Below are positions 2,694 to 38,524 of a stretch of DNA of 64,000 nucleotides, one piece after another (the stretch's first letter is position 1; each line of letters opens with the position of its first letter). The stretch lies in the NCBI RefSeq assembly GCF_023923225.1, contig NZ_CP099489.1, forward strand, positions 1,798,001 to 1,862,000. Reading direction: 5' to 3'. The translations under genes were made by a program, and so were the position numbers. This DNA is from Ornithinimicrobium faecis. GTDB lineage: Bacteria; Actinomycetota; Actinomycetes; Actinomycetales; Dermatophilaceae. The notes under the pieces were generated by a model, which was not told the DNA's origin, made no database searches, and was given only the letters and a program-made list of their open reading frames with translations.

Positions 2694-2821
2694 AATAAAG
2701 GTCTCGCACGCCCGCCCCGTCTTTTGATACAGGTCTCGTACGTCGCTCCCGGCTTTTGATACAGGTCTCGTACGTCGCTCCCGGCTTTTGATACAGGTCT
2801 CGCACGCCCTCCTCGGTGCTG
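2694..2821 (-). repeat. array A: four tandem 32-bp repeats, core CGTRCGAGACCTNTAY
   Basis: Four units start at 2694, 2726, 2758 and 2790, exactly 32 bp apart. Units 2 and 3 are identical, while units 1 and 4 differ outside the core. Read on the minus strand each contains CGTACGAGACCTGTAT or CGTGCGAGACCTKTAT, and the first three have AAAAG beside the core. The array fills the space between the gcvT stop and a glycerate kinase gene fragment. Two further arrays of the same family lie at 18851 and 38428. Function unknown; there are no unique spacers, so it is not CRISPR. Confidence 0.9.
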
Positions 2822-2827
2822 GCGACC

Positions 2828-2900
2828 CGGCTCGCTCATGGCCGAGATCCGCGCCAACCTCCTCGACCAGGGACCACAGGTCGGCGAAGCCGGTGCCACA
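2828..2900 (-). pseudogene. fragment of a glycerate kinase 3' end (duplicate of part of the gene at 3583)
   Basis: The minus strand encodes GTGFADLWSLVEEVGADLG, closely matching GTGFAAVWSLVEEVGGEAA near the C-terminus of the intact glycerate kinase at 3583-4728. At DNA level 2859-2897 and 3673-3711 agree at 35 of 39 positions. The similarity stops sharply at GTGF, and there is no start codon or upstream kinase sequence. The piece is therefore a duplicated or recombined fragment, and the GNAT gene at 3024 lies between the two copies. Confidence 0.7.
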
Positions 2901-3023
2901 GGTTGGCGGTGGAGCCCGGGTTGTCGAGCTCCGCCCACGCCGACGCTGATCGCCCGCCCGTGGCATCGCACCGTCGTGCCAGCATTGGTCCGCAGTGTCG
3001 GTGCTCGCAGTTACGTTTCGTTG

Positions 3024-3509
3024 ATGAACCTCAAGTTGTGCGAAGTCACCAGTCAGAACGTGCACGCCCTGATGGAGTTTCCGTTGCGGCCCGGCCAGGA
3101 ACGCTTCGTTGCGCCGGTCGCGAACTCGATCGCCGAGGCCTCCGTGACTCCCACAGCGTGGCCACGTGCAATCTGTGACGGCGACGATGTTGTCGGGTTC
3201 GTCATGGCCAACTTCGACCCGGACAACGAGTTGGCGGCCTTTCGCTGCGGGATCTGGAGACTGCATGTCTCGGCAGATCAACAGGGACGTGGCGTGGGGC
3301 GCTTTGCCGTCGAAGAGGTCGCCCGAGAAGCCCGGCGACGGGGGAACGAGCAGATGACTGTGCTGTGGGTTCAGGGCGACGGTGGACCAGAGCAGTTCTA
3401 TCTGCGCTGCGGCTTCGAGCCGACCGGCGAACGACTGTTCGGCCAGATCCTGGGCGCCCGCAGCACACACACTGCGGCCACTGGCACACCGCCCACACGC
3501 GCGTCGTGA
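3024..3509 (+). CDS. GNAT family N-acetyltransferase
   Basis: Predicted 161-residue acetyl-CoA-dependent acetyltransferase with unknown substrate. The acetyl-CoA-binding motif A appears as LHVSADQQGRGVGRFAVEEV, followed by the typical C-terminal FYLRCGFEPTGER segment. The ATG at 3024 was chosen because the open frame before it (from 2838) runs through the glycerate kinase fragment and has no GNAT sequence. The gene sits alone between that fragment and the intact kinase, in opposite orientation to both. This suggests it arrived by an insertion that duplicated the kinase end. Confidence 0.8.
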   Translation: MNLKLCEVTSQNVHALMEFPLRPGQERFVAPVANSIAEASVTPTAWPRAICDGDDVVGFVMANFDPDNELAAFRCGIWRLHVSADQQGRGVGRFAVEEVAREARRRGNEQMTVLWVQGDGGPEQFYLRCGFEPTGERLFGQILGARSTHTAATGTPPTRAS

Positions 3510-3582
3510 TCAGGTCGCTGGGTGACGCGGAAGTCTTGGCCGCGTGGCTCGTGGTTGTGCCCTCGTGCTCGGCGTGGCGAGG

Positions 3583-4728
3583 CTAGCGCTGCTCGCGCCA
3601 GTGTCGGACCGCACCAGCGGTGACCTCGGTCAGGCTCGCTGCAGTCTCGTGGAGCGCTGCCTCTCCACCGACTTCCTCGACCAGGGACCACACCGCGGCG
3701 AAGCCGGTGCCCTCGCGACCCTCCGGGTCGACCATGCCCGCCACCGCGATCGTGGGCAGGCCGTGCGTGGCTGCGAGCTCGGCCAGCGCCACTGGTCCCT
3801 TGCCATAGCGGCTCTGCGCGTCCAGCTTGCCCTCACCGGTGAGCACCAGGTCGGCCTGCTTCAGGGCGTCGGGCAGGCCGATCAGGTCCATCACCAGGTC
3901 GCCGCCGGGCCGGACCTCCGCGCCGAGCAACGCCATCAGCCCCCACCCGAGGCCGCCCGCTGCCCCCGCGCCGGGACGCTCGCGCAGGGGCTCGCCGTCA
4001 ACGGCTGACTCGACGACGTTGGCCACGGTCGCCAGCCCCTGATCCAGCAGGGCGACCTCGTCCGGGCCAGCGCCCTTCTGCGGGCCATAGACAGCTGCTG
4101 CCCCGGTCGGACCGAGCAGCGGGTTGGTGACGTCGGTGGCCGCGACGAAGGAAGTGCTGGTGACACGCGGGTCCAGCCCGGTGAGGTCAACAGACACCAC
4201 CCGGTCCAGCTCGCCCGGACCGACGACCTCGCCGTCAGCATCAACGAACCGAGCGCCCAGCTCGGCGACCAGCCCCGTGCCGCCATCGGTGCAGGCCACG
4301 CCGCCCAGGCCGATCGCGACACTGGTCGCACCCGCGTCCCAGGCTGCCCGGATGAGGGCGCCGACCCCGGCACTGCTGGCCCGCAGCGAGGTCCGCGGCG
4401 TCGGCGAGATCAGTTGCAGCCCGCACGCCTGCGCGGACTCGATGACCGCAGTGGTCCCGAGCATCGCGAACTGCGCTTCCACCGGGTCTCCCAGGGGTCC
4501 GGGGACCGTCAGCCGGTGCTCCGTGGCACCGGTGGCCAGGATCGCCTCGACCGTGCCCTCCCCGCCGTCGGCCAGTGGGATCTCGTCAACGACGGCATCC
4601 GGGAGCACCGCACGCACGCCAACAGCCATCGCCGCGGCCGCCGCCGGACCGCTCAGGGTGCCCTTGAACTTGTCCGGAGCCACCACGACGCGGACACCGC
4701 CAACATCACCCGGTCGGTCATCCACCAT
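3583..4728 (-). CDS. glxK: glycerate 2-kinase (GlxK/GarK family)
   Basis: Phosphorylates D-glycerate with ATP, probably to 2-phosphoglycerate as is usual for this family. At 381 residues it has family length. Motifs: APDKFKGTLSG at the N-terminus, IPLADGGEGT around residue 50, CTDGGTG in the middle, and LTGEGKLDAQSRYGKGP in the C-terminal third. The ATG at 4728 follows AGAAGG at good spacing. It lies 60 bp downstream of the D-tartrate-dehydratase-like gene on the same strand, so the two are probably co-transcribed in a sugar-acid catabolic unit under the LysR gene upstream. A fragment of its 3' end is repeated at 2828-2900. Confidence 0.9.
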   Translation of the reverse strand: MVDDRPGDVGGVRVVVAPDKFKGTLSGPAAAAAMAVGVRAVLPDAVVDEIPLADGGEGTVEAILATGATEHRLTVPGPLGDPVEAQFAMLGTTAVIESAQACGLQLISPTPRTSLRASSAGVGALIRAAWDAGATSVAIGLGGVACTDGGTGLVAELGARFVDADGEVVGPGELDRVVSVDLTGLDPRVTSTSFVAATDVTNPLLGPTGAAAVYGPQKGAGPDEVALLDQGLATVANVVESAVDGEPLRERPGAGAAGGLGWGLMALLGAEVRPGGDLVMDLIGLPDALKQADLVLTGEGKLDAQSRYGKGPVALAELAATHGLPTIAVAGMVDPEGREGTGFAAVWSLVEEVGGEAALHETAASLTEVTAGAVRHWREQR

Positions 4729-4788
4729 GGAACAGCCCTTCTGTGCCGCTGCGAGATTGCCGCCTTCACGCCCCCGCTGCCCGGAAGC

Positions 4789-5955
4789 CTAGGAGAGCAG
4801 GCTCGCACACACCTTCGCCAGGTCGGACTTGCCCTCGAAACCGATGCCCGGGAGTTGCGGCATACGGATGTGGCCGTCCTCAACGGTGCACCCGTCCGGG
4901 AAGCCGCCAAACGGCTGGAACAGGTCGGGATAGGACTCGTTGCCGCCCAGGCCCAGACCGGCCGCGATGTTGAGCGACATCTGGTGGCCACCGTGCGGGA
5001 TGAAGCGGCTGGGGGCCCAACCGAGCTCGCCGAGGGCCTTGAGGCTGCGCAGATACTCCACCAGGCCATAGCTGAGGGCGCAGTCCAGCTGCAGGAAGTC
5101 ACGCTGGGGGTCCATGCCGCCATACAGGCCGAGGTTGCGGGCGTCCCAGTGCGAGAACAGGTTCTCTCCGGTCGCGATCGGCAGGGTCCCGGCGCGCTCG
5201 GACACCAGGCGCGTGCCCTCATAGTCCAGCGGGTCGACGGGCTCCTCAAACCAGAACAGGTCGTAGTCCTTGATCGCCTCGAGGCACTCCACGGCCTGCT
5301 CACCGGTGAAGCGGCCGTTGGCGTCGACCATCAGGCGCTGACCCTCGCCCAGGATGCTGAGGGCCGCCTCGATGCGGGTCCGGTCCTCGGCCAGGGGGGC
5401 GCCACCGATCTTCATCTTCACCACGGTGTAGCCGCGGTCGAGATAGCTGGTGAGCTCGTCCTTCAGACCCTGCAGACCCTTGCCCGGGTGGTAGTAACCG
5501 CCTGCGGCATAGACGAACACGCGCGGGTCGGGGGTCCCGGTGCCATGGCGCTCGGCGAGCAGGTCGAACAACGGGCGCTCCTCGAGCTTGGCGCGCGCGT
5601 CCCACAGGGCCATGTCGAGCACGCCGACGGCGACCGAGCGCTCACCGTGGCCGCCGGGCTTCTCGTTGGTCATCATCGTGTCCCACGCGCGGTGCGGGTC
5701 GAGCAGGCCACTCTCGTCCAGCAGCGACTCTGGCTCCGCCTCGAGCAGTCGCGGCACGAACCGCTCCTTCATCAGCGCGCCCTGGCCGTAGCGGCCGTTG
5801 GAGTTGAACCCGAAGCCGACCACGGGCTTGCCGTCGCGGATCTCGTCGGTCACCACCGCCACCAGGCTCAGCGTCATCTTCGAAAAGTCGATGAACGAGT
5901 TGCGGATGGGGCTGGAGATCGGGAAGGTGCGCTCCCGAATGTCGACGATTCTCAT
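4789..5955 (-). CDS. enolase-superfamily dehydratase, probably D-tartrate dehydratase
   Basis: 388-residue member of the mandelate racemase/muconate lactonizing group. Visible active-site positions are KMK with K180/K182, metal ligands D211 (VDANGRF), E237 (FEEP) and E264 (GEN), and H321 (PHGGH). This arrangement, the length, and the N-terminus RIVDIRERTFPISSPIRNS match what I remember of Bradyrhizobium D-tartrate dehydratase, which converts D-tartrate to oxaloacetate. Substrate assignment within this superfamily from sequence alone is risky; another acid-sugar dehydratase remains possible. The flanking LysR regulator (upstream, 43 bp) and glycerate kinase (downstream) support a role in tartrate or related sugar-acid breakdown. 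Confidence 0.75.
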   Translation of the reverse strand: MRIVDIRERTFPISSPIRNSFIDFSKMTLSLVAVVTDEIRDGKPVVGFGFNSNGRYGQGALMKERFVPRLLEAEPESLLDESGLLDPHRAWDTMMTNEKPGGHGERSVAVGVLDMALWDARAKLEERPLFDLLAERHGTGTPDPRVFVYAAGGYYHPGKGLQGLKDELTSYLDRGYTVVKMKIGGAPLAEDRTRIEAALSILGEGQRLMVDANGRFTGEQAVECLEAIKDYDLFWFEEPVDPLDYEGTRLVSERAGTLPIATGENLFSHWDARNLGLYGGMDPQRDFLQLDCALSYGLVEYLRSLKALGELGWAPSRFIPHGGHQMSLNIAAGLGLGGNESYPDLFQPFGGFPDGCTVEDGHIRMPQLPGIGFEGKSDLAKVCASLLS

Positions 5956-5998
5956 GCGGTGAACCTATGGCCGGGTCGCGGCGCCTGTCCAAGACCAG

Positions 5999-6913
5999 TT
6001 ATGGATGCGGGTCATCCAGATTGCTTATGTCCGCAGGCCAGTCCAGGTCCACGGCGAGGTCCAGCAGGACCTGGGCGGCCGGTGTCAGAGCCGTATGCCG
6101 ACAGATCAGGTCGACCTCGACGCGCAGGGGCGACTGAAGTTGGCAGACCACGGCCCCGGCCCGACGGGCCAGGTCGGCCCAGGCGGACGACAGGACCGCG
6201 ACACCGACCCCGGCCAGCACGAGCGGCAGGATGGCAGAGCGGTGCTCGACCTCGACGGCGATCGTCAGGCCCGACTCGGCGCAGAGCTGGTCAGCCATCG
6301 CCCGCATCACGCTCCCGGGAGGGGAGGCGATCAGTCGCTGACCGTCCAGGTCGCCCGGTGTCAGTGGGCGATCCGAGGGAAGCGACGTGTCGGGCGGGGC
6401 GAGCAGGACCATGTGCTGTTGGCCCAACCGGTGGGCGGTGATGGCGGGAGGGTAGGGCGCTGCGAGGGCACCCACGAGCCCGAGCTCGCAGGCTCCGCTG
6501 AGGACCAGGGCCACTGCGTCGTCGCGCCCGAAGGCGGCACGGGCGTTGACGGTGATCCCGGGGTGGCGCTCGCTGAGCCGGGCGGTCAGTGAGGTGAAAG
6601 GCTCAATGCTCTGAGATGGCATGAGCGCCAGGTCAATCCGTCCGGTGTGGTCGGTGCCGATCGACTGGGTGGCGGCGCGGGCAGCGTCCAGGTCGCGCAG
6701 CACCTGCCGCGCCATCGGGACCAGCGTCGCCCCGGCGTCGGTGAGACGCACGCCGCTGGGCACACGGTGCAGCAGCGGAACCCCGAGATCCTTCTCCAGG
6801 GCGGCCACGGCCTGCGAGAGCGCCGGCTGGCTCACGTGCAGATGGGTCGCTGCCCTGCCGAAGCCGCCGTGGGTCACGACTCCGAGGAAATAGGTGAGCT
6901 GGCGAGTGTCCAT
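5999..6913 (-). CDS. LysR family transcriptional regulator
   Basis: 304 residues: an N-terminal winged helix-turn-helix (residues about 3-60, including THLHVSQPALSQAVAALEKDLG) and a C-terminal effector-binding domain. It is encoded 43 bp upstream of, and in the same direction as, the dehydratase gene. Many LysR genes are instead divergent from their targets, so here it is probably the first gene of the operon it controls and may also regulate itself. A dicarboxylic sugar acid such as tartrate is a plausible co-inducer, by context only. No clear operator was found in the 40 bp between its start and the sigma factor gene. Confidence 0.88.
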   Translation of the reverse strand: MDTRQLTYFLGVVTHGGFGRAATHLHVSQPALSQAVAALEKDLGVPLLHRVPSGVRLTDAGATLVPMARQVLRDLDAARAATQSIGTDHTGRIDLALMPSQSIEPFTSLTARLSERHPGITVNARAAFGRDDAVALVLSGACELGLVGALAAPYPPAITAHRLGQQHMVLLAPPDTSLPSDRPLTPGDLDGQRLIASPPGSVMRAMADQLCAESGLTIAVEVEHRSAILPLVLAGVGVAVLSSAWADLARRAGAVVCQLQSPLRVEVDLICRHTALTPAAQVLLDLAVDLDWPADISNLDDPHP

Positions 6914-6953
6914 GGCGGTGCCAGCGTAGTCACCAGGTCATCGGGTCATTGGG

Positions 6954-7859
6954 TCAGCGGCTCAGTTGTGCCGCGCCTCCCTGTGCCCGGCGGAGCTTCT
7001 CCGGATTGCGCATCAGATAGAGCGCGGTCACCAGACCGCGCTCCAAGCGCACGGTCACCACGACGTCGAGCTCCCCGGCTCCGAAGAAGCGCAGGGCAGG
7101 CTGTCCGTTCATGGTGGTGAGGTCATAGGTCAGCACGTCGGGATAATTGAAGAAGACCCCGGCCATCCAGCGCAACGCCTTCTCCGCGCCGTGGATCGGT
7201 CGCAGGGCCGCCTTCTTCAGCCCGCCCCCGTCGGAGAACAGCACGACATCAGGGGCCAGGAGCTCCATCAGCGGCTGGAGATCGCCGCCATCAGCCGCCG
7301 CCAGGAAGAGGCGCATGACCTTCTCGGCCTCTGGGTGCGTCCCCGGTGGGGGACGCTGGCTGCGCACCGCGCGGCCTGCCCGACTGGCCACCTGGCGCAC
7401 CGCCGCCGGTGACTTGTCCACCGCCGCCGCGATCTCGGCATACTCAAAACCGAAGACCTCGCGCAGGACGAAGACGGCCCGCTCGGTGGGGGAGAGCGTC
7501 TCCAGGACCAACAGCATCGCCGTGGAGAGCGAGTCCGCGAGCTCGACATCCTCGGCGACGTCCGGGCTGGTCAGCAACGGCTCGGGCAACCACGGGCCGA
7601 CATAGGTCTCGCGGCGGCGCTCGAGCGTGCGGATGCGGTTGAGTGCCTGGCGGGTGACGATCCGGACGAGATAGGCGCGCGGGTCCCGGACCGCAGACTG
7701 GTCCACCTCGGACCACCGCAACCAGGTCTCCTGCACCACGTCCTCGGCATCGACAGCGGACGAGAGCATCTCGTAGGCGACGGTGAACAGCAGGCTGCGG
7801 TGCTCCACGAACGGATCACTCGCCTGGTCGCTCACTGGGCCGCTCCCTGGGTCGGTCAC
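6954..7859 (-). CDS. ECF41-group RNA polymerase sigma factor with SnoaL-like C-terminal domain
   Basis: 301 residues. Sigma region 2 (AYEMLSSAVDAEDVVQETWLRW) and region 4 (AEIAAAVDKSPAAVRQVASRA) are followed by a SnoaL-like domain. Three ECF41 hallmarks are present: WLPEPL in the linker (residue 90), DGGG in the extra domain, and NPEKL near the C-terminus. In this group the extension replaces an anti-sigma factor and tunes activity. The GTG start at 7859 overlaps the stop of the AhpD-like gene (GTGA), the classic ECF41 pairing, so both are transcribed from the promoter at 8474-8500. Confidence 0.92.
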   Translation of the reverse strand: MTDPGSGPVSDQASDPFVEHRSLLFTVAYEMLSSAVDAEDVVQETWLRWSEVDQSAVRDPRAYLVRIVTRQALNRIRTLERRRETYVGPWLPEPLLTSPDVAEDVELADSLSTAMLLVLETLSPTERAVFVLREVFGFEYAEIAAAVDKSPAAVRQVASRAGRAVRSQRPPPGTHPEAEKVMRLFLAAADGGDLQPLMELLAPDVVLFSDGGGLKKAALRPIHGAEKALRWMAGVFFNYPDVLTYDLTTMNGQPALRFFGAGELDVVVTVRLERGLVTALYLMRNPEKLRRAQGGAAQLSR

Positions 7860-8422
7860 TGGGCCAACGGTGCCAGGTCGCAGGAGTCTGCGAAACCCTG
7901 GGACGTCAGCCCCATCGCCGAGTTGGCCCGGGACCGCATGTTCTCCACGGCGATGAGCTCGGTGAGCTCGACCAGCGCAGCCGACCCGAGACGCTCGTGC
8001 AGGCTGGCGACCATCTCGTCGGTCACCTCAAGAGGCGTGACGCTCATCGCCTCGGCATAGGCCAGCACGTCACGCTCGAGCGGGGTGAACACGGTGCTGT
8101 CGCGCCACATCGGGACCTGGCGTGCCTTCTCCTCGTCGAGCCCCTCGGTGTGGGCCAGGAAATAGCCGAAGTCCAGGCACCAGCTGCAGCCGACGGTGGC
8201 TGCCGACGCCATGACGGCGTAGGCCTTCAGCTGCGGGTCGCACGCGGACAGCTTGGCGAGCTTGCGCTCGAAGCCCAGGAGCGCCCGTGTGAGCGGACCG
8301 TGGTGGAGCAGGACGTAGGCAAAGTCCGGGACCTCGCCGTAGGTGCGGCGGGCGTAGGCACTGAGAATCCGCGCGAAGGGGCCGCTCAGGTTGGCCTTGG
8401 GGATCCGGAAGTTGCTGGGCAT
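7856..8422 (-). CDS. carboxymuconolactone decarboxylase/AhpD-like protein, ECF41 partner
   Basis: 188-residue alkylhydroperoxidase-D-like protein. The redox motif CSWC followed by a histidine (CSWCLDFGYFLAH) is present, as expected for peroxide-handling members. The ATG at 8422 is preceded by GAGGAG at 7 nt; the open frame extends upstream, but that part lacks family sequence and contains the promoter. Genes of this type are the usual targets of ECF41 sigma factors, and here it heads the two-gene operon and overlaps the sigma gene. The exact substrate is unknown. Confidence 0.88.
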   Translation of the reverse strand: MPSNFRIPKANLSGPFARILSAYARRTYGEVPDFAYVLLHHGPLTRALLGFERKLAKLSACDPQLKAYAVMASAATVGCSWCLDFGYFLAHTEGLDEEKARQVPMWRDSTVFTPLERDVLAYAEAMSVTPLEVTDEMVASLHERLGSAALVELTELIAVENMRSRANSAMGLTSQGFADSCDLAPLAQ

Positions 8423-8473
8423 CTGGTGCTCCTCATCGGTCGTGCGGCCCCTGGTGGGCCGGCTGACCATGAA

Positions 8474-8500
8474 GACACCGCTGCTGCCGGATCTGTGACA
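8474..8500 (-). promoter_or_regulatory. ECF41-type promoter (TGTCACA-N16-TGTC)
   Basis: On the minus strand TGTCACA (8494-8500), a 16-bp spacer and TGTC (8474-8477) match the published ECF41 consensus TGTCACA-N16-CGTC except for C to T in the last element. It lies about 50 bp upstream of the AhpD-like gene, in the right direction for autoregulation by the sigma factor encoded next in the operon. Confidence 0.75.
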
Positions 8501-8517
8501 AGACGTGCTGCGGATGC

Positions 8518-8994
8518 TCACAGGGAGCGCTTGAAACCCTCGTGGCTCGCCTGGTAGCCCAGTCTGGAATAGAAGCGCTGGGCGTCGGAGCGGGTCTTGT
8601 CCGAGGTCAGTTGAGCGAGGACCGCGCCCTGCTGTCGGCCGTGCTCGTGGGCCCACTCGAAGAGCGCCGTGCCGAGCCCGGTGCCTCGGACGGTGGAGGC
8701 AAGGCGGACCCCCTCGATCTGAAGTCTCTTGGCGCCTCCGCGCGAGAGGCCCGGGATGAGCGTCAACTGCATGGTGCCGACGAGGTTGTCCTCGCCGTCA
8801 CGCACCGTGAGCAGGAGGTGGTTCGGGTCACGGTCGATCTCGCGGAAGGCCGCGAGATAGGGCTCGAGCTCGGACGATTCTCGATGGGCACCGAGGACGT
8901 CGTCCGCTAGCAGGGCGACGAGAGCGGGGACGTCTGACTCGACCGCGCGAGCGAGCGCAAACTGGCCCTCGTCGAACTCGAATGGCTTCACCAC
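8518..8994 (-). CDS. GNAT family N-acetyltransferase
   Basis: 158 residues with a complete GNAT core: the acetyl-CoA-binding segment is RLASTVRGTGLGTALFEWA, and the C-terminal strand is AQRFYSRLGYQASHEGFK. Similar small GNATs are annotated across actinobacteria without known substrates. The gene ends just 17 bp before the ECF41 promoter on the same strand, so read-through into the AhpD-sigma operon is possible. Its ATG at 8994 has no strong Shine-Dalgarno sequence. Confidence 0.85.
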   Translation of the reverse strand: MVKPFEFDEGQFALARAVESDVPALVALLADDVLGAHRESSELEPYLAAFREIDRDPNHLLLTVRDGEDNLVGTMQLTLIPGLSRGGAKRLQIEGVRLASTVRGTGLGTALFEWAHEHGRQQGAVLAQLTSDKTRSDAQRFYSRLGYQASHEGFKRSL

Positions 8995-9059
8995 CCAAGG
9001 TGCCCATCAACGCTCACCCAGCCGCACGGCATACGGTCGGACGAATTGACGCGACCCGC

Positions 9060-12142: not shown

Positions 12143-12148
12143 GGAGTC

Positions 12149-17348: not shown

Positions 17349-18659
17349 TCAGTTCGGTTCGGGGGCGCTGAGGCCATTGGCCTGGTCCTCGGCATGACCC
17401 GCCGTGCGGAGCTCCTGCACGGTGCCGGGCACCGAGGCTGCGTAGAGCGCGACCAGGACCAGTCCCGCGCTGATGGCGACCGCCAGGATCGGCCCGGTGA
17501 GCACCTGCATCCCCCACGATCCGGTGATGAAGAACGGAAAGATGACGAGCGTGACCACCGCAGACCCGAGCGCGGTCCAGGACGAGGCCAGCCACAGCCC
17601 ATCGCGTCGCCGGCCGAGACGCCACCAGTCAAAGAGCGTCCACACCTGGCCGATGACTCCGGCCATGGCGCAGAGCAGCGCCATGGTGATCAGGGTGTCG
17701 CCGCGGATCCCGTCGGACTCCATCACTGATTTCATGCCACCCCCGGTCCCGCTGATGCCAGGGTTGCCGATGGGCAACAGCATCATCCCGAACGGGGCGA
17801 CCAGCGCAACGGCCTTGAGGCACTGCAGCGCCATGTTCGAGTTGGCCAGACTGCTCGGAAGAGGGCGACGTGTGGTCTCGCCGGGCACGCTCCGCTGGAC
17901 CGGCTCCGCTGGTTTGTCGGCGTCTTTGTCTGCGTCGAGACGCCACCAGTCCCCGAGGGGGAGAGCTGCGGCCTGATCCGCGGTGGCCCGATCGACAAGG
18001 TGCCGCGTGAGCAGAACCTCGAGGACCTCTTGACGCTCTGTCAGCAGGGACTGCTGCTGCTCCTGCGGCAGCACCCGCATCAGCCCTCCGCGCGCCTGGG
18101 CGCGGGCCGCCCTCAACGTCCCGGGTCGTGAGGCGAACAGTTGCGCACCGACGGCCAGTGCCCCGAGGACGACGGCCGTCATGGTCGTGGGCCTCACCAC
18201 CTGAGGGAGCACCCCTCCGATTGCGGGCGGCGGCTCTAACCACATCAGCCAGAGCACACCGATCAGCAGGGTGACCAGCGAGGAGAGGACCGTGAGCCAG
18301 TCACGACGGCGCCCGAGGTGCCACCAGGACAGCAGCGTCCACGTCTGACCGCACAGGGCCAGCACGAAGCAGACCAGCGCGAGGTCCTGGAGCGTCTCGC
18401 CATAGACCATCCACGGCACTCGGCCCGGCTGTCCGATGCCCAGCTGGTCCGGCACCCCGAGCGGCGCCAGCAGGGCGACGACCGGTGCGGCGTAGGTGAC
18501 GAGCCGCGCGACGGGCACGACCCGTTCACCGCGGGCTCGGCCCCGCACGGACGGGACATCCCGGCCCAGGCGGGCCTCGAGAGCGGCAAAGGACACTCCC
18601 TGTTCGAACTGCGCCTGGGTGGCCACCTGCACCGCATCGCTGCGCACGGACTTACTCAT
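17349..18659 (-). CDS. hypothetical membrane protein with internal duplication
   Basis: 436 residues, not recognised. After a charged N-terminus (1-45) there are two homologous membrane modules of about three helices each. The first contains CGQTWTLLSWWHLGRRRDWL (around residue 105), the second IGQVWTLFDWWRLGRRRDGL (around residue 345). They are separated by a charged cytoplasmic linker (about 200-270) with SLLTERQEVLEVLLTRHLVDR. The repeated QxWTLxxWWxLGRRRD signature suggests an ancient tandem duplication. It is a single-gene unit divergent from trpS; the start ATG has no strong Shine-Dalgarno sequence. Confidence 0.8.
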   Translation of the reverse strand: MSKSVRSDAVQVATQAQFEQGVSFAALEARLGRDVPSVRGRARGERVVPVARLVTYAAPVVALLAPLGVPDQLGIGQPGRVPWMVYGETLQDLALVCFVLALCGQTWTLLSWWHLGRRRDWLTVLSSLVTLLIGVLWLMWLEPPPAIGGVLPQVVRPTTMTAVVLGALAVGAQLFASRPGTLRAARAQARGGLMRVLPQEQQQSLLTERQEVLEVLLTRHLVDRATADQAAALPLGDWWRLDADKDADKPAEPVQRSVPGETTRRPLPSSLANSNMALQCLKAVALVAPFGMMLLPIGNPGISGTGGGMKSVMESDGIRGDTLITMALLCAMAGVIGQVWTLFDWWRLGRRRDGLWLASSWTALGSAVVTLVIFPFFITGSWGMQVLTGPILAVAISAGLVLVALYAASVPGTVQELRTAGHAEDQANGLSAPEPN

Positions 18660-18850: not shown

Positions 18851-18946
18851 CGTACGAGACCTCTACGAAGAGGCGGGCGAGGCGTACGAGACCTCTACGA
18901 AAAGGCGGGGGAGGCGTACGAGACCTTTACGAGAATGGGTAGAGTG
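18851..18946 (+). repeat. array B: three tandem 32-bp repeats overlapping the trpS leader promoter
   Basis: Units begin at 18851, 18883 and 18915, 32 bp apart, each starting CGTACGAGACCT followed by CTACG or TTACG. Orientation is towards trpS, opposite in sequence direction to arrays A and C. Unit 3 runs into the -10 element of the trp leader (18940-18945), so the cores sit at roughly -30, -62 and -94 relative to the predicted transcription start. The rest of the 18660-18850 gap upstream shows nothing recognisable. Confidence 0.9.
18940..18945 (+). promoter_or_regulatory. -10 element of the trpS leader transcript
   Basis: TAGAGT followed by exactly 7 bases and the leader-peptide ATG at 18953, so the leader peptide itself is predicted to be leaderless. 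No TTGACA-like -35 is present at 17-18 bp; repeat unit 3 occupies that position. Confidence 0.5.
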
Positions 18947-18952: not shown

Positions 18953-19000
18953 ATGACGAATGTGCGCTCCTGCTGGTGGCTGTCCTCGCGACGGCCCTGA
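18953..19000 (+). CDS. trp leader peptide (15 aa, tandem Trp codons)
   Basis: Encodes MTNVRSCWWLSSRRP followed by TGA. The two adjacent TGG codons are at 18974-18979. The stop codon lies 20 bases before the terminator hairpin, and the last codons overlap the first antiterminator strand (18990-18996). This is the arrangement needed for ribosome-controlled attenuation: stalling at TGG TGG when charged tRNA-Trp is scarce frees the segment to pair downstream. Similar leaders before trp genes are known in actinobacteria. Confidence 0.85.
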   Translation: MTNVRSCWWLSSRRP

Positions 19001-19085: not shown

Positions 19086-20276
19086 ATGACCACCGAGACC
19101 GACCCCACGGCATACGACCCGAGCAGCCACACGGAGCAGTCCACCAGCGAGCAGTCCACCGCGACAGCCGAGGACGACGCCGCCGTCGGCGACGCGCTCG
19201 CCGCCTCCACCTCGGACGCCTCCCTGGCCCGCACCATCCTGCGCTCGGCCCAGATCGAGAAGGAGATTGACCAGGACGCCAGCAGGTTCCGGGTGCTCAC
19301 CGGCGACCGGCCGACCGGCAACCTGCACCTGGGCCACTATTTCGGCACCCTGCGCAACCGGGTGCTCCTGCAGCAGCGCGGCGTGGAGACCTTCATCCTC
19401 ATCGCCGACTATCAGGTGATCGCCGACCGCGACGGCGTCGGCCCGATCAAGGAGCGGGTCTACTCGCTGCTCGCGGACTATCTGGCGGCCGGGATGGACC
19501 CGGAGGCGACCACGATCTTCACGCACTCCAGTGTCCCGGCGCTCAACCAGCTGATGCTGCCCTTCCTGTCGCTGGTCACCGACTCCGAGCTGCGCCGCAA
19601 CCCCACCGTCAAGGCGGAGTTCGAGGCGACCGGGGGCCGGCCGATGTCCGGGCTGCTGCTGACCTATCCCGTGCACCAGGCCGCCGACATCCTGTTCTGC
19701 AAGGCCAACCTGGTGCCGGTCGGCAAGGACCAGGTGCCACACCTGGAGCAGGCCCGCGTGATCGCCCGCCGTTTCGATGAGCGCTATGGCCGCTCCGACG
19801 CGAGCACCCCGATCTTCCCGCCGCCGGAGCCCCTGCTGTCCGAGGCGGCCAGCCTGCTCGGCACCGACGGCACCAAGATGTCGAAGTCCAAGGGCAACAC
19901 GATCGAGCTGGGCATGGACGCCGACACCACGGCCAAGGTGCTCAAGAAGGCCGTCACCGACGCGGACCGCACCATCACCTATGACCCCGCGAACCGTCCC
20001 GAGGTGTCCAACCTGGTGCTGCTCGCGGCCCTGTCCAGCGGTCGGGACCCGCAGGAGATCGCGGCCGAGATCGGCGACGGCGGTGGCGGCACGCTCAAGA
20101 AGGTCGTCACCGAGGCCGTCAACGAGCACTTCGCCCCGATCCGGGCCCGTCGCGCCGAGGTGGCGGCTGACCAGGGCTACCTCGAGCAGGTGCTGGCCCG
20201 CGGCAACGAGCGCGCCAACGAGATCGCCACGGCGACGCTGGACGAGGTCCGCACCGCCATGCAGATGACTTACTGA
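19086..20276 (+). CDS. trpS: tryptophanyl-tRNA synthetase
   Basis: Class I synthetase charging tRNA-Trp; 396 residues including an unusual acidic, Ser/Thr-rich N-terminal extension of about 55 residues before the catalytic domain. The HIGH-type motif is TGDRPTGNLHLGHYFG, and the KMSKS-type motif is DGTKMSKSKGNTIELG. The ATG at 19086 is preceded by GGAAAGG. The preceding leader peptide and attenuator predict induction when charged tRNA-Trp is low. The glycerate-kinase-like gene follows after 5 bp, so it is probably co-regulated. Confidence 0.96.
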   Translation: MTTETDPTAYDPSSHTEQSTSEQSTATAEDDAAVGDALAASTSDASLARTILRSAQIEKEIDQDASRFRVLTGDRPTGNLHLGHYFGTLRNRVLLQQRGVETFILIADYQVIADRDGVGPIKERVYSLLADYLAAGMDPEATTIFTHSSVPALNQLMLPFLSLVTDSELRRNPTVKAEFEATGGRPMSGLLLTYPVHQAADILFCKANLVPVGKDQVPHLEQARVIARRFDERYGRSDASTPIFPPPEPLLSEAASLLGTDGTKMSKSKGNTIELGMDADTTAKVLKKAVTDADRTITYDPANRPEVSNLVLLAALSSGRDPQEIAAEIGDGGGGTLKKVVTEAVNEHFAPIRARRAEVAADQGYLEQVLARGNERANEIATATLDEVRTAMQMTY

Positions 20277-30251: not shown

Positions 30252-30393
30252 CACGCCTCCTCCCGCCCCATCGCGAACCGTCCTGATCAACTGCCACCAA
30301 CATTAGGACAGAGGTCTGACACTGCCCTCCAGAGGACGAATCGGCTGCTTGGAGGGGGAGGGCGGGAGTCAGGCGGACAGGCCAAGGGGTGGG

Positions 30394-30645
30394 CAGCTGA
30401 GACGTCGGCCTGTGAGCCTCAGACAGTCGGTCTGGCCAGCCCAAGCGGTTGGTCGGGGCAGCCCGAGACGGTCGGCCGGGGGAGCCTGACACGTGAGACT
30501 GACACGTTCCGGCCTGGGGGAGGCCTGACACGTTCCGGTCTGGGGGAGGCCTGAGACGGCCGGTCTGGGCAGCCCGAGCAGGTTGGTCTGGACGACCGGC
30601 CACGGTCGGCCTGGGGAGCCTCAGACGGTCGGTCTGGGCTGTCGT
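30394..30645. repeat. imperfect tandem repeat (minisatellite), about ten units of 22-26 bp
   Basis: Units approximate CCTSAGACGGTCGGTCTGGG plus SAG; the clearest are at 30418-30440, 30464-30485, 30549-30571 and 30618-30640. Two neighbouring units carry the variant GACACGTTCCGG and are 26 bp long. The block fills most of the 430-bp gap between the metallopeptidase stop and the HNH gene start. Open frames through it look random, so it is non-coding. The remaining parts of the gap (30252-30393, 30646-30681) show nothing recognisable. Confidence 0.75.
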
Positions 30646-31253: not shown

Positions 31254-31277
31254 GGACCGTGCGTGGGGACGAGCGCG

Positions 31278-33032: not shown

Positions 33033-34102
33033 CAGCCACGCTCCCAGTAGCTCGGGCCAATCGGCTCGGCGAAGCCGTCAGCCGCAACAAGGTAACCATT
33101 CTCCACCATGATCGGCAGCTGCGGCAGGGGCCGCTTCGCCGGGCCGAAAATGACCTCGCAGTCGTTGGTCATGTCGAAGGTTGACTGGTGGCACGGGCAG
33201 AGCAGGTGGTGCGTCTGCCGCTCATAGAGCGCCACGGGGCACCCGACGTGGGTGCAGATCTTGGAGTAGGCGACGATGCCATCGACGCCCCAGTCGAGCT
33301 GCTTCTGGCTCTGGATGTCACCGGGGTTGAGCTTGACCAGCAGGACCGAGGCCGTGGCCTTGGCCTCCATGATCTCCAGCGCGCTCGGGCCGTCCTCTTC
33401 GTGGTTGTCACCGACAAACCCCTCGGGCATCACGTGCACCACGGTGCCCTGCGTCAGGTGTTCCGGGCGGATCGGGGTGCCGGACGGGTCAATCATCAGC
33501 TTCATGCCGCGCTTCCACACGGTCGACTCGAGCGTGTCACCGGGCAACGGGCCCAGACCGAAGATGGTCGGCAGCGCCACCGGGATCGCAAAGAGTGCCA
33601 GGGCCCCGCCGGTCAGGGCCAGCAGGACCGGGCGACGGTCCAGCTGGGCCTCGCGGAAGCCGGCGGACAGGACGCCCGCAGTCTCATCGCGCGAGGCCTG
33701 GTCAGAGGCCATCAAGTGGCGCTCCTCAGCGATCTCCGTGTCGGGCATCAGGGTCTTGGCCCAGTGGATCGCGCCCAGACCGATGCCCAGCAGGGACACG
33801 GCCATCGTCAGCCCGAGGATCAGGTGATAGAGGTTCATCGGCCCGATGAGGATCAGGCGACCGCGCAGGTTGGGGTCCACCACGAAGTAGCAGACGGCGA
33901 AGGCGATGCTGGCCAGCACCGACAGGGTGAACAGGGCCGACACCTGGTGCTCGGCGCGCTTGGCGGCCTTCGCATCGACGTCGGAGCGACGCGGGCGGTG
34001 CGGGGGGAGTCCGGGGTTGTCGAACCGGTCGATTGTGTCGGTGCCGCCGGTGGTCGCCGGCGTCGCGTGCGGCTCGGGCACCGCGATCTGGTCGTCACTC
34101 AT
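33032..34102 (-). CDS. qcrA: cytochrome bc1 complex Rieske iron-sulfur subunit
   Basis: 356 residues: a charged N-terminus, three transmembrane helices (ALFTLSVLASIAFAVCYFVV, the YHLILGLTMAVSLLGIGLGA segment, and the helix at residues about 165-185), as in other actinobacterial Rieske subunits, and a C-terminal 2Fe-2S domain with CTHVGC and CPCHQS. The start is 4 bp downstream of the qcrC stop. The erpA product encoded 11 kb away could load its cluster (inference). Confidence 0.97.
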   Translation of the reverse strand: MSDDQIAVPEPHATPATTGGTDTIDRFDNPGLPPHRPRRSDVDAKAAKRAEHQVSALFTLSVLASIAFAVCYFVVDPNLRGRLILIGPMNLYHLILGLTMAVSLLGIGLGAIHWAKTLMPDTEIAEERHLMASDQASRDETAGVLSAGFREAQLDRRPVLLALTGGALALFAIPVALPTIFGLGPLPGDTLESTVWKRGMKLMIDPSGTPIRPEHLTQGTVVHVMPEGFVGDNHEEDGPSALEIMEAKATASVLLVKLNPGDIQSQKQLDWGVDGIVAYSKICTHVGCPVALYERQTHHLLCPCHQSTFDMTNDCEVIFGPAKRPLPQLPIMVENGYLVAADGFAEPIGPSYWERG

Positions 34103-34106
34103 GTGC

Positions 34107-34916
34107 TCAGGCAGCCTTTCGTCCGAGCCAGATCGCCACCGCGATCAATAGGCCGATACCGATGGTCCAGATGAACAGGGCATCACCGGCCGGGCCCATG
34201 GAGCCCAGGGTGTGACCACCGAAGTCGTTGCCGCCCTCCTCGATGTTCTTGACGAAGGCGATGACGTCTTCCTTCTCCTGCGGCGTGATGGTGTGGTCGT
34301 TGAAGACCGGCATCGACTGCGGGCCGGTGAGCATGGCCTCGTAGATGTGCTTGGACTCGACACCCATCAGCGAGGGGGCGTACTTGCCGCGGGTCAGCGC
34401 GCCACCCTGAGCGGAGGAGTTGTGGCACATCGCGCAGTTGGTGCGGAAGATCTTGCCACCGTTGGCGATGTCGGCGTTGACCAGGTCGATGTACTGCGCG
34501 TCCGGCACCGAGGGGCCCGGGCCCAGGGAGTCAATGAAGATGCCGAGCTGCTCGATCTCCTTGTCGGTGAAGACCTTCGGCTTTTCCGGCGCCTGGACGG
34601 CAGGGTTAGCCATCGGCATACGGCCGGTGCCGACCTGGAAGTCGACCGCTGCCGAGCCGACGCCGACGAGGGACGGACCGGCGGTGTTGATGCCCTTCTT
34701 GCCCTCGGCGTTGGTGCCGTGACAGCTGGCGCAGTTGGCGAGGAAGAGCTTCTTGCCCTCCTCAGCGTCGTCACTGGCCGTTGCGGAGGCCGCGGTGGCG
34801 TCCGGGGAGGTGGAGGGCTGCAGGGCCGCGTAGGCGGTGCCGGTGAAGGTCAGGCCCAGGAAGAGCAGAACGATCAGGGCGATCGGGCTGCGTCGGGATG
34901 CGGCAAGCTTGCTCAC
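34107..34916 (-). CDS. qcrC: cytochrome bc1 complex diheme cytochrome c subunit
   Basis: 269 residues: N-terminal signal/anchor helix (IALIVLLFLGLTFTGTAYA), two cytochrome c domains with heme sites CASCH and CAMCH, and a C-terminal membrane helix (LFIWTIGIGLLIAVAIWLG). The diheme subunit replaces soluble cytochrome c by passing electrons directly to CuA of subunit II. The GTG at 34916 has GAGGAG 6 nt upstream; the open frame extends further, but that part is not conserved sequence. Confidence 0.97.
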   Translation of the reverse strand: MSKLAASRRSPIALIVLLFLGLTFTGTAYAALQPSTSPDATAASATASDDAEEGKKLFLANCASCHGTNAEGKKGINTAGPSLVGVGSAAVDFQVGTGRMPMANPAVQAPEKPKVFTDKEIEQLGIFIDSLGPGPSVPDAQYIDLVNADIANGGKIFRTNCAMCHNSSAQGGALTRGKYAPSLMGVESKHIYEAMLTGPQSMPVFNDHTITPQEKEDVIAFVKNIEEGGNDFGGHTLGSMGPAGDALFIWTIGIGLLIAVAIWLGRKAA

Positions 34917-34965
34917 GCGGCGCTCCTCGGTCGGGGGTGGGTCAGGGGATGTGGCTGGCGGGCGG

Positions 34966-35634
34966 TCATTGGAGGACGTAGATGATGAAGAACAGGGCGA
35001 CCCACACGACATCAACGAAGTGCCAGTAGTAGGACACCACGTGGGCGCCGACCTTCTGGGCGTGCGTGTAGCGCTTGGCGGTGAAACTGCGGCCGATGAT
35101 CAGCAGGAAGGCGATCAGGCCACCCGAGACGTGGATGCCGTGGAAGCCGGTGGTGATGTAGAAGACCGAGCCGTAGGGGTCGGAGTTGAGCATGACGCCC
35201 TCGCTGATCAGCGTCGCGTATTCCCAGACCTGGACGGCGACGAAGACCGAGCCGAAGAGGTAGGTCAGGACGAACCACTCGCGCATGCCCCACTTGCGGA
35301 AGTCGAGCAGACCACCGGACCGGGAGACCTTGCCCTCCTCGGCGCGGAACACACCAAACTGGCACCACGCGGAGGAGATGACCAGGATCAGGGTGTTGGT
35401 CAGCGCGAAGGGCACGTTGAGCAGGGCAGTCTTCTCGTCCCACAGCTCGGTGGAGACGGCGCGGATTGTGAAGTACATCGCGAACAGGCCCGCAAAGAAC
35501 ATGATCTCGCTGCCCAGCCACACCATCACGCCGACCTGGGTCATGTTGGGTCGGGTCGCTGGTCCCTGGGTCGCCTCCAGGGGACGCCCTGGTGCGCCTG
35601 ATGTTGCTGCTGTTGTCATCGCCACGCGGGCCAT
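34966..35634 (-). CDS. ctaE: cytochrome c oxidase (aa3) subunit III
   Basis: About 222 residues with five transmembrane helices (for example MVWLGSEIMFFAGLFAMYF) and the conserved YITTGFHGIHVSGGLIAFL segment. First gene of the ctaE-qcrC-A-B operon, 49 bp before qcrC. The start is uncertain: ATG 35634, GTG 35625 or ATG 35619 are in frame, and TAGGCAATAAT upstream could be the -10 of a leaderless transcript. The 212-bp gap to the divergent receiver gene holds both promoters. Confidence 0.96.
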   Translation of the reverse strand: MARVAMTTAATSGAPGRPLEATQGPATRPNMTQVGVMVWLGSEIMFFAGLFAMYFTIRAVSTELWDEKTALLNVPFALTNTLILVISSAWCQFGVFRAEEGKVSRSGGLLDFRKWGMREWFVLTYLFGSVFVAVQVWEYATLISEGVMLNSDPYGSVFYITTGFHGIHVSGGLIAFLLIIGRSFTAKRYTHAQKVGAHVVSYYWHFVDVVWVALFFIIYVLQ

Positions 35635-35833
35635 TATTGCCTACCCGGGGGGCAGAGGGACAGTGACCCTCCGTTCGGGCGTGCCCCGCAGCACCCGAAG
35701 GGTGGTTGTGCCGTATGCGGAGTGGTCCCGCAGGTGCACCGGCCCCACCCTGAGTGGGCGGCTCAGCGCGGGCTTCGAGGGTGCCTCGGGGCACGTCGTG
35801 CCACCGGTTCACGAGGTGGGGCGCAGAGATGGG

Positions 35834-35839
35834 TACGAT
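35834..35839 (+). promoter_or_regulatory. -10 element of a probable leaderless promoter for the receiver-trpD operon
   Basis: TACGAT followed by exactly 7 bases and the ATG at 35847; no Shine-Dalgarno sequence. Confidence 0.5.
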
Positions 35840-35846
35840 TCGACTC

Positions 35847-36257
35847 ATGACCGTCCAGACCGAGGCCAAGTCCGCCGTCACCGGCATCTCCGTCCTGCTC
35901 TACAGCGACGACCGCGCCACGCGCGACGCGGTGCGCATGGGCGTCGGTCGACGCCCGGCCGAGGGTGTGACCGTCGAGTCCTGGCACGAGTGTGCAACCT
36001 CCGACGCCGTCATGTTGGCGCTGAAGGAGGAGAAGTTCGACGTCCTGATCCTGGATGGCGAGGCCCAGCCGTATGGCGGTCTCGGGGTGTGCCGCCAGAT
36101 CAAGAACGAGGTCTTCGACTGTCCGCCGATCATGGTGCTCATCGGTCGCCCCGGCGACGGGTGGCTCGCGGCCTGGTCGCAGGCCGACGCCGTCGTCTCC
36201 CACCCGCTGCGCCCGGCCGAGCTGGCCGAGGGCCTCGCGGGTCTCGTCCGCCCGTGA
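35847..36257 (+). CDS. atypical (degenerate) response-regulator receiver domain protein
   Basis: 136 residues, a stand-alone CheY-like fold. The acidic pair D21/D22 and the acceptor position D70 (LILDGEAQP) are kept, but the switch Ser/Thr after strand 4 is glycine (VLIGRPGD), and the conserved lysine of strand 5 is replaced by His119 (VSHPLRPAEL). Phosphorylation-driven switching is therefore doubtful. It has no output domain and no nearby histidine kinase. Its stop overlaps the trpD start, so the two proteins are co-produced. Function unknown. Confidence 0.8.
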   Translation: MTVQTEAKSAVTGISVLLYSDDRATRDAVRMGVGRRPAEGVTVESWHECATSDAVMLALKEEKFDVLILDGEAQPYGGLGVCRQIKNEVFDCPPIMVLIGRPGDGWLAAWSQADAVVSHPLRPAELAEGLAGLVRP

Positions 36258-37318
36258 GTGAGGAGCCGACCACGACCTGGTCGGACCTGCTGACCACGCT
36301 GTGCTCCGGCGGTGACCTGAGCACGCAGGAGGCTGCCTGGGCGATGGACCGGGTCATGCTCGGTGAGGCCTCTCCCGCGCGGCTGGCTGCCTTCCTGGCC
36401 GCGCTGCGCACCAAGGGCGAGACCGCCGACGAGATGCAGGGCCTGGCGGACATGATGCTCTCGCACGCCCTGCGCTTCGAGGTCACGGGACCCAGCCTGG
36501 ACATCGTCGGCACCGGCGGCGACCGGGCCCACACCGTGAACATCTCCACGATGTCCGCCGTGGTGGCCGCCGGAGCCGGCGTGCCGGTCGTCAAGCACGG
36601 CAACCGCGCCGCCTCGTCATCGTCCGGGTCTGCGGACGTCCTCGAGGCACTCGGGATCCGGCTGGACGCCACGCCCGAGCAGGTCGTGCGGGTCTTCCAC
36701 GAGGTCGGGATCACGTTCTGCTTCGCGCTGACCTTCCACCCCTCCTTCCGGCACTCCGCCGTGGTGCGCAAGGACCTGGGGATCGCGACGGCCTTCAACT
36801 TCCTGGGGCCGCTGACCAACCCGGCGCAGCCGCGCTATGCCGCCGTCGGCGTGGCCGATGCCCGGATGGCGCCGCTGGTGGCCGGGGTCTTCGCCGGCCG
36901 CGGCAAGGACGCGGCCATCTTCCGTGGTGATGACGGTCTGGACGAGCTGACCACCTCCGGCACCTCGCACGTCTGGTGGGTCCACGACGGCACGGTCCGC
37001 GAGTTCACGCTGTCTCCCGAGATGGTCGGTCTGAGCCCTCACCCGGTGTCCGAACTGCGCGGCGCTGACGCCGAGCACAACGCGGGAGTGGCCCGTCGCC
37101 TGTTTGACGGCGAGCAGGGTGCCGCACGGGTGGCGGTGCTGCTCAACGCCGGCACTGCCCTGGCGGTGGCTGCGGCCGACACGGACGCTCAGCACCCGCA
37201 GACCCAGGAAGAGTTCGAGGCCCTCATCGGCTCCGGGGTCGCACGGGCAACGGACTCGATCGATGCTGGGAAGGCCGCGGCGGTCATCGACCGTTGGGTT
37301 GCGGCAACGGGTTCGTAA
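36254..37318 (+). CDS. trpD: anthranilate phosphoribosyltransferase
   Basis: Second step of tryptophan synthesis: joins anthranilate and PRPP. 354 residues with DIVGTGGD (PRPP loop, near residue 80), VNISTMSA, KHGNRAASSSSGSADVLEALG, and the Mg-binding-type GDDGLDELT. The GTG at 36254 overlaps the stop of the receiver gene (GTGA). The position beside ctaE is conserved in actinobacteria, away from other trp genes, and no attenuator is visible here, unlike trpS. Confidence 0.96.
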   Translation: MSEEPTTTWSDLLTTLCSGGDLSTQEAAWAMDRVMLGEASPARLAAFLAALRTKGETADEMQGLADMMLSHALRFEVTGPSLDIVGTGGDRAHTVNISTMSAVVAAGAGVPVVKHGNRAASSSSGSADVLEALGIRLDATPEQVVRVFHEVGITFCFALTFHPSFRHSAVVRKDLGIATAFNFLGPLTNPAQPRYAAVGVADARMAPLVAGVFAGRGKDAAIFRGDDGLDELTTSGTSHVWWVHDGTVREFTLSPEMVGLSPHPVSELRGADAEHNAGVARRLFDGEQGAARVAVLLNAGTALAVAAADTDAQHPQTQEEFEALIGSGVARATDSIDAGKAAAVIDRWVAATGS

Positions 37319-37415
37319 AGATTCGCACTCGTTGCGGCCAGACGCTGGCCATGGTTGGCCCTCAGGTGCGCGCTGAGCTGCTCCCAGGCCCACACGCCGT
37401 GCCACGGTGGACCCT

Positions 37416-38420
37416 GTGAGCACGAGCACGCGGGTCTCGATCGTCGGCGGTGGGATCGCGGGGCTCGCCCTGGCCGCCGCGCTCGACCCGGCACGCTTCG
37501 CGGTCACCATCCACGAGGCTGAGCCCGACCGGGCTGCCTCGGGCAGCGCCCTGACGCTCTGGCCGGCGGCGACCCGAGCACTCCGGCGCATCGGTGCTGG
37601 GGAGGTGGTGGATCGGCATACGGCCTCCGTGGCGGGCGGCACGATCCGGGACCTGCGCACTGGCCGTCGTCTCCTGCCCTCCGCCAGCGCGCGGCTGACG
37701 ATCGTGCCCAGGCCCGAGCTGCTCGCCGCGCTGGAGGCCTGCCTGCCGTCGACCGTTCGTCGCGAGCAGGCGCTGATCAGTGACCCGAGCGCGCTCGACG
37801 CCGACATCGTTGTGGGGGCCGACGGTGTGCGCAGCCGGGTGCGTGCTCTGGTGCGGCGCAGTCGTCCCGAGCGGACGCCCACGGGCTATCTGGCGCTGCG
37901 GGGGCTCTCGGAGCAGCCCCCGGACACTGGCGACGTGGGGGAGTACTGGGGCCGCGGCCGACTCTTCGGGCTGGTGCCGCTGCAGTCCGGTGCCTACTGG
38001 TTCACCACGCACCGCAGCACCCTCGGGCCGGAGCCGATCAACCCACGGGAGGCGCTGGCGGAGGTGCGGGATGTCTTCTCCGGCGTCGCCGCACCGGTGC
38101 AGCAGGTCCTGGCCGGCGCGCGGGCAGAGCGCGTCGTGGTCACCAAGCTCTGGGTGGCGCCCGGCATGGGGCGCTATGCCAGGGGCCGCTATGTGCTGAT
38201 CGGGGACGCCGCGCACGCCATGACACCCAACCTCGGGCGCGGCGCCGGCGACGCGATCATCGACGCCGTCAGCCTGGCCCCTGTCCTGGGGTCACGGTTC
38301 GGCCTGGCGCGCTGGCAGGCCCGCCGGCTGCCGTTTACGCAGGGCGCACGCGTGGCCTCGGGCTGCGTGATGAACCTCGCGCTCAGCGGCCAACCCCAGC
38401 GGATGCTCGGACGCGCCTGA
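37416..38420 (+). CDS. FAD-dependent monooxygenase
   Basis: 334 residues of the PHBH-like flavin monooxygenase class. Rossmann dinucleotide-binding motif VSIVGGGIAGLALAAAL at the N-terminus, the DG motif ADIVVGADGVRSRVR in the middle, and the second FAD motif YVLIGDAAHAMTPNLGRGAG near the C-terminus. Shorter than the usual 390-400 residues, with a reduced C-terminal part. The start may be GTG 37416 (CACGGT 7 bases upstream) or GTG 37407. Substrate unknown; no pathway partners adjacent. Confidence 0.9.
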   Translation: MSTSTRVSIVGGGIAGLALAAALDPARFAVTIHEAEPDRAASGSALTLWPAATRALRRIGAGEVVDRHTASVAGGTIRDLRTGRRLLPSASARLTIVPRPELLAALEACLPSTVRREQALISDPSALDADIVVGADGVRSRVRALVRRSRPERTPTGYLALRGLSEQPPDTGDVGEYWGRGRLFGLVPLQSGAYWFTTHRSTLGPEPINPREALAEVRDVFSGVAAPVQQVLAGARAERVVVTKLWVAPGMGRYARGRYVLIGDAAHAMTPNLGRGAGDAIIDAVSLAPVLGSRFGLARWQARRLPFTQGARVASGCVMNLALSGQPQRMLGRA

Positions 38421-38427
38421 CCCCCGC

Positions 38428-38524
38428 AAAAAGATAAAGGTCTCGCACGCCCACCCGGAAAAAGATAAAGGTCTCGCACGCCCTACCCGCAAGAAGATAG
38501 AGGTCTCGCACGGTCAGGGGCGCG
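38428..38524 (-). repeat. array C: three tandem 31-32-bp repeats of the CGTRCGAGACCTNTAY family
   Basis: The GATA of each unit is at 38433, 38464 and 38496 (spacing 31 and 32). On the minus strand all three read CGTGCGAGACCT followed by TTATC or CTATC, with A/T-rich sequence next to it. The array starts about 10 bp after the monooxygenase stop, in the gap between that gene and the convergent Lrp-like gene. The remaining 38525-38620 shows nothing recognisable. Confidence 0.88.

Follow-up and report, generated by a model that had tools for sequence, protein, structure and literature searches.

Repetitive extragenic palindromic sequences (REPs) are palindromic, and REPINs are inverted, hairpin-forming and associated with RAYT-type transposases (PMC3116915, PMC12306157). 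The DNA uptake sequences (DUS) of the Neisseriaceae occur in species-specific dialects that follow phylogeny, are associated with gene ends and are thought to track the binding protein ComP; they run to thousands of copies, with counts such as 2426 and 5918 (PMC3630211). Here we describe a family of intergenic tandem arrays with a 32-bp period, represented three times in a 64,000-nucleotide stretch of the Ornithinimicrobium faecis genome (contig NZ_CP099489.1, positions 1,798,001 to 1,862,000; hereafter the window), which lie mostly behind stop codons and may be sites for a DNA-binding protein. No description of the family was found in a literature search whose scope left out most subscription journals.

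The arrays share with REPs and REPINs a large number of dispersed extragenic copies, a preference for doublets, the location of part of the copies no more than 15 nt from a stop codon and inheritance within lineages (PMC3116915, PMC12306157), but they are direct and mostly unstructured repeats. Membership of the REP/REPIN class was rejected on structure (mean fold z near 0 in four of five genomes) and on the transposase, as RAYT-type proteins (Y1_Tnp, PF01797) were found in 0 of 31 genomes of the genus by a search whose control matched 5 of 14. Like DUS, the arrays are dispersed short sites with species-differing versions and gene-end association; unlike DUS, which are reported often as inverted pairs at terminators (PMC3630211), they are phased direct repeats of at least two units. 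Tandem intergenic placement is also seen in the TAACTGA repeats of Beggiatoaceae, which differ from the arrays in having a 7-bp unit without a spacer, mostly directly upstream of start codons (PMC4679880). A viral origin was rejected on 0 matches of two family patterns in viral contigs. Mycobacterial MIRU units are longer (approximately 40–100 bp) and span stop and start codons in operons; compared with this general description, the array unit is 32 bp.

Anatomy and spacing of the repeat unit

The first-pass annotation had placed ten copies of a core in arrays of four, three and three, and all ten exact copies of CGTRCGAGACCTNTAY were found at those places (Table 1). With up to 3 mismatches there were 14 matches in the window (10 exact and 4 with 3 mismatches) against a shuffle mean of 3.69, with 0 of 100 shuffles reaching 14, and Tandem Repeats Finder recovered the identical three arrays. 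The motif is neither rare nor confined to the window, a caveat raised with the original description. In the home genome (G000), whose single contig of 4,620,106 bases includes the window, exact copies of CGTRCGAGACCTNTA number 86, with 43 on each strand (reversed pattern, 0), and those of CGTRCGAAACCNNTAY, the other position-8 type, number 74. When position 8 was written as R and up to 1 mismatch was allowed, 111 + 101 = 212 copies were found (reversed control, 1).

The consensus of 214 units in the fetched G000 loci was CGTRCGARACCTYTAYSAAAATGCGGG plus about 5 linker bases. Within the approximately 27 bp ahead of the linker, a conserved half of 11 bp is followed by a short variable segment, an A/T tract and a G-rich half. 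In these units 99 % fixation is seen at core positions 2, 7, 9, 10 and 11, A and G are about equally frequent at positions 4 and 8, and spacers and linkers drift. The annotated contrast of a nearly invariant core with a drifting remainder thus holds, but its fixed GAGACC does not, position 8 being A or G genome-wide. Unit positions 18–21 form either an A-tract or a T-tract, one replacing the other. Gene-proximal units have the T-tract more often than other units do, with CTTTTT or ATTTTT in 41 of 83 last units and CTTTTT in 11 of 130 others, as counted among the eight commonest sequences listed. An interchange of this kind would be as in sites read by DNA shape. The ten strongest covarying pairs in G000 are no more than 3 positions apart; weaker distant pairs, such as 8–24 and 8–14, are present in G006. 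A second core version, with CCTCCCT replacing CCTNTAY and also at 32-bp spacing, was observed at four G000 loci (L036, L042, L057 and L066, near 507073, 1164947, 2721369 and 3669631).

The period of 32 bp (once 31), or approximately three helical turns, was borne out in the window and extended well beyond it. Among 331 spacings in seven genomes, obtained with a finder accepting only 30–34 bp between strong partners, 327 were 31–33 bp (32 bp, 287; 31 bp, 34; 33 bp, 6; 30 bp, 4). A looser scan joining cores up to 70 bp apart gave 32 bp (75), 31 bp (21), 33 bp (2) and 55 bp (1). Unit length seems to be held rather than merely copied, because the period stays at 32 bp across spacers that are less than 60 % identical, in 52/58 such pairs in G000, 33/35 in G006, 17/17 in G014 and 27/29 in G023. 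Lone units were not found: of 165 exact G000 cores, the script assigned all but 3 to arrays, and these 3 have a neighbouring unit, two belonging to a four-unit array and one having, as read by eye, a degenerate partner 32 bp away. The minimum is therefore two units. Where units had the same sequence context only one was counted, which leaves some arrays with too few units (2 rather than 4 for the array at 1165068). Together, the conservation of the core, the drift of the spacers and a period fixed near three turns are what would be expected of bound sites.

Placement at gene ends and RNA structure

Genes were called with a codon-usage gene finder made for this analysis, and for genomes other than G000 the arrays considered are those in fetched pieces, mostly found by motif. 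Stop codons within −40 to +25 nt, counted over 210 arrays, numbered 131 in the 3′ direction from the last core and 24 at the opposite end, so that the core typically points towards the gene that it follows. Going 3′ from the last core, the closest gene end is a stop codon in 59/83 arrays of G000, 32/43 of G006, 23/29 of G014, 16/21 of G018, 3/6 of G008, 1/2 of G019 and 15/26 of G023 (3 of the 26 having no called gene there). In 36 arrays the stop codon ends between 5 nt inside the core and 3 nt off it. At L033, L034 and L044 in G000 and at L313 and L334, the last repeat unit appears to encode the protein ends PAKR, QFS or QKI together with the stop codon.

Arrays with a stop codon on the 3′ side lie at convergent gene pairs in 33/58 cases in G000, 22/32 in G006 and 15/23 in G014; the convergent baseline in five unbiased sequence sets is 0.27–0.36 of all gene ends and 0.50–0.52 of transcription-unit-like ends. 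Within the window, arrays A and C had both been assigned to convergent gene ends, which is correct for C only, as A adjoins a co-directional GNAT acetyltransferase gene. The array-bearing genes are ordinary genes. In a comparison of ten with NCBIfam, six passed the cut-off (purB, cysE/epsC, purE, ctaB, guaB1 and polyphosphate glucokinase) and four matched only below it. Replication-polar sites such as KOPS and Ter were rejected as a class, one orientation per replichore not being seen: 47 of 83 G000 arrays are co-oriented with replication, as inferred from the GC skew of the fetched loci.

By the logic of the folding script no more than 30 arrays per genome were folded, although its output gives 80 for G000 and 41 for G006. 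Mean fold z values on the core strand were 0.36 (G000), 0.19 (G006), −0.32 (G014), −0.01 (G018) and −1.60 (G023), and on the other strand 0.61, −0.23, −0.13, −0.15 and −0.94, respectively. Arrays are thus mostly without a hairpin, G023 being a weaker exception. Hairpins in the first 100 nt were weaker at ends that have an array of their own than at other transcription-unit-like ends (pooled, 108 vs 150 ends, one-sided rank test, P=1.1e-5; G000, P=0.0013; G014, P=0.0015). Hairpins do not appear to have been just pushed outward by the array, because z was below −2 at 12/66 array ends vs 50/144 others (Fisher P=0.015). Orthologous ends without arrays were located in other genomes in only 8 cases. 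An intrinsic terminator, with a G+C-rich hairpin and T run, was rejected as a description of the arrays given no excess fold energy and the weaker hairpins at array ends.

The strong polarity relative to the gene and the location about 20 nt or less from the stop codon could also be explained by a 3′ untranslated region element read in RNA, whose unstructured tandem motifs would attract a ribonuclease or an RNA-binding protein, or influence ribosomes as they terminate. Every unit has an A/T-rich single-stranded stretch that would suit such a role, and REPs no more than 15 nt from a stop codon are reported as ribosome-stalling (PMC12306157). We consider this explanation unlikely: an RNA element would not need its period fixed across diverged spacers, the arrays have little structure, and a minority lies upstream of start codons in the opposite sense.

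Clade distribution and core versions

The expectation that the family would be dispersed in many copies, with matching loci in relatives, was confirmed by the genome-wide and related-genome searches. The analysis added four features to the annotation, namely polarity to the stop codon, the two-unit minimum, species-specific core versions and restriction to one clade. A search for core pairs at 32-bp spacing, allowing up to 3 mismatches, found them in 7 of 196 relatives, which all belong to a single genus (7 of the 31 genomes searched there: G000, G006, G008, G014, G018, G019 and G023), with unequal copy numbers; the reversed control gave 0 throughout. In GcvT identity the carriers are nearest (84–90 %) and other genus members reach no more than 75 %, with no good GcvT match in G022. 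The family is therefore limited to one clade of the genus, with one genome per species available for comparison.

Wider searches gave similar limits. The exact G-type core was found among 97 relatives in G000 and in one copy in G019 only. Only G000 matched in a class-wide sample of 296 genomes, from which the other six carriers were absent. Among named GTDB genomes, where home-genome records may be left out, one record matched, the Actinomycetales metagenome-assembled genome JAAYYA010000050.1, which matches a G023 locus at 100 % over 3,016 bases. A tandem pattern with fixed GAGACC, to which A-type cores are invisible, matched in 69 others over 396 genomes, by eye without the CTNTAY part. An intergenic scan for periods of 18–50 bp found no period of 32 in two non-carriers, G016 and G013, of which it covered 200 kb apiece and where two repeats of period 33 (G016) and one of period 34 (G013) had unrelated sequences. 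In carriers the same scan gave period 32 three times in the window, four times in G019 and five times in G018, of which by eye only 1 in G019 and 2 in G018 were family-like. Two further repeats were observed in carriers: an array in G019, the nearest carrier, with the quite different core CGTTCCGAACCTCCCC at 32-bp spacing (L231:3207–3265), and an intergenic tandem repeat of period 31–34 in G018 with a G-rich unit unlike the family (L249:17737–17954).

Carriers often hold arrays at the same gene junctions. The junction is shared with a G000 array for 17/43 arrays of G006, 11/29 of G014, 6/26 of G023, 3/6 of G008 and 1/21 of G018, and with a G006 array for 9/29 arrays of G014. On the assumption of 4,000 gene ends, chance would give 0.9 (G006), 0.6 (G014) and 0.5 (G023) shared with G000 and 0.3 between G006 and G014. 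Core versions nevertheless differ: CGTRCGARACCT in G000, CCTACGAAACC in G006, CCKACGAAACC in G014, CGTACGAAACC in G023 and CCARCAAAACC in G018. At core positions 1–11, orthologous arrays (22 groups, listed by hand) agree between genomes at 0.75 and unrelated arrays at 0.76, and agreement within genomes is 0.87 in G000 and 0.85 in G006. Behind the gcvT stop codon four carriers have four core versions, and no array was found in the 230 nt examined in G019, G006 and G014; this locus is free of motif-search bias because it was found by protein.

Versions that differ between carriers raise the idea of DNA uptake or similar self-recognition sequences kept by biased transformation. Species-following versions and gene-end association are reported for DUS (PMC3630211). 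Here, however, copies are in the hundreds rather than thousands and form tandem direct repeats at a fixed period with strong polarity to the gene, and DUS at terminators are reported as inverted pairs (PMC3630211); we regard this explanation as highly improbable.

Alternatively, the arrays could be a mobile repeat that serves no host function, was spread by an enzyme favouring gene ends and has been inherited since; where it cuts into a gene end it would create a new stop codon. The lineage-specific expansion and unequal copy number fit this, as do the 36 arrays with a stop codon in or near the core, some C-termini that vary among species at genes whose stop codon comes from the repeat, and the patchy presence of the gcvT array. 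Recent copies are lacking, as the most alike G000 arrays at different loci agree at 93 % over 60 nt with unrelated flanks. The kept core amid drifting spacers, the lack of lone units, the Y1 transposase missing from all 31 genomes and the patterns without viral matches likewise make such an origin rather unlikely. If the repeat is mobile, it would represent a family unlike REPs in shape and mechanism.

A possible protein roadblock and the window loci

TTF-I sites are roadblock terminator sites. Orientation-dependent blocking of RNA polymerase is reported for Rap1p, and at Rap1 and Reb1 sites a bound protein stops the polymerase once it has passed a gene (PMC10310618). The arrays could work in the same way. 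Rap1, Reb1 and TTF-I are eukaryotic proteins, and no homologue was found here, no search aimed at one having been made; the roadblock is an inference.

Bound, phased, polar sites that block RNA polymerase are the reading to which we commit, with a probability of roughly 0.4: the arrays would be tandem sites for a putative clade-specific DNA-binding protein at gene ends, stalling RNA polymerase, with sites and specificity co-evolving. At least two protein copies would bind, presumably cooperatively, approximately three helical turns apart on the same DNA face. With the array polar, behind the stop codon and its core pointing to the gene, the bound proteins would pause or stop RNA polymerase leaving the gene, replacing a hairpin terminator. 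Changes in protein specificity, followed by the sites, could have produced the species-different core versions at the same loci. A roadblock is our guess at the likeliest effect of the arrays. We regard it as rather unlikely that the clade has evolved protein-dependent gene ending or insulation, in which polar phased arrays stand in for hairpin terminators and sites and protein change together by species.

Several results weigh against this roadblock reading. Pointing to a start codon within 25 nt is a minority of 15/210 arrays, and a few start-facing arrays sit between co-directional genes a few dozen nucleotides apart, a poor fit to terminators. The hairpin difference was not significant in G006 alone (P=0.10) and was absent across whole convergent gaps (G000, 24 vs 27, P=0.95). 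The period is looser in G018, at 32 bp in 9/14 pairs with diverged spacers. Within G014 and G023 cores agree at only 0.77, barely above the 0.75 between genomes, and the contrast in core versions is partly built in because version-specific patterns served to find most of the loci in G006, G014 and G023. A binding protein was not found, no systematic search having been made. Genes between two arrays, read by eye for a cognate enzyme with no family search run, included TetR-like, IS3 OrfA-like, membrane and heme-synthesis-like genes and some weak calls, none convincing.

If the arrays are bound, they offer a natural series of dozens of changed sites per genome, many at the same genes, from which protein–site co-evolution would be measurable. 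If they end transcription, they would constitute a sequence-specific, protein-dependent bacterial terminator system.

Table 1. Arrays and neighbouring genes in the window (window coordinates)
Feature	Positions	Strand	Remarks
Array A, four cores	2695-2806 (2695-2710, 2727-2742, 2759-2774, 2791-2806)	-	Core strand points to gcvT stop codon, distance 8 nt
Array B, three cores	18851-18930 (18851-18866, 18883-18898, 18915-18930)	+	Points to small-ORF start, distance 22 nt; minority class away from stop codons
Array C, three cores	38434-38512 (38434-38449, 38465-38480, 38497-38512)	-	Points to stop codon of FAD-binding protein gene, distance 13 nt
gcvT	1589..2686	+	PF01571, PF08669; array behind stop codon in four carrier species
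GNAT acetyltransferase	3024..3509	+	Co-directional neighbour past array A; next called gene after gcvT
Predicted gene without Pfam match	17349..18659	-	Divergent neighbour of array B
15-codon open reading frame (ORF) MTNVRSCWWLSSRRP	18953..19000	+	Lies between array B and trpS; contains two adjacent Trp codons
Class I tRNA synthetase (W and Y family)	19086..20276	+	PF00579; called trpS in the first-pass annotation
FAD-binding protein	37416..38420	+	PF01494; array C just behind its stop codon
AsnC-type protein	38621..38899	-	PF01037; convergent neighbour of array C

Array B had been described as lying upstream of trpS, and this position is correct, but the nearest start codon is that of the 15-codon ORF. 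This ORF resembles a leader peptide for attenuation. No Rfam family matched within the window. Further tandem repeats of different sequence were observed between predicted genes at 30391-30569, 45676-45718 and 51960-52016, with periods of 23–26, 15 and 17 bp, respectively.

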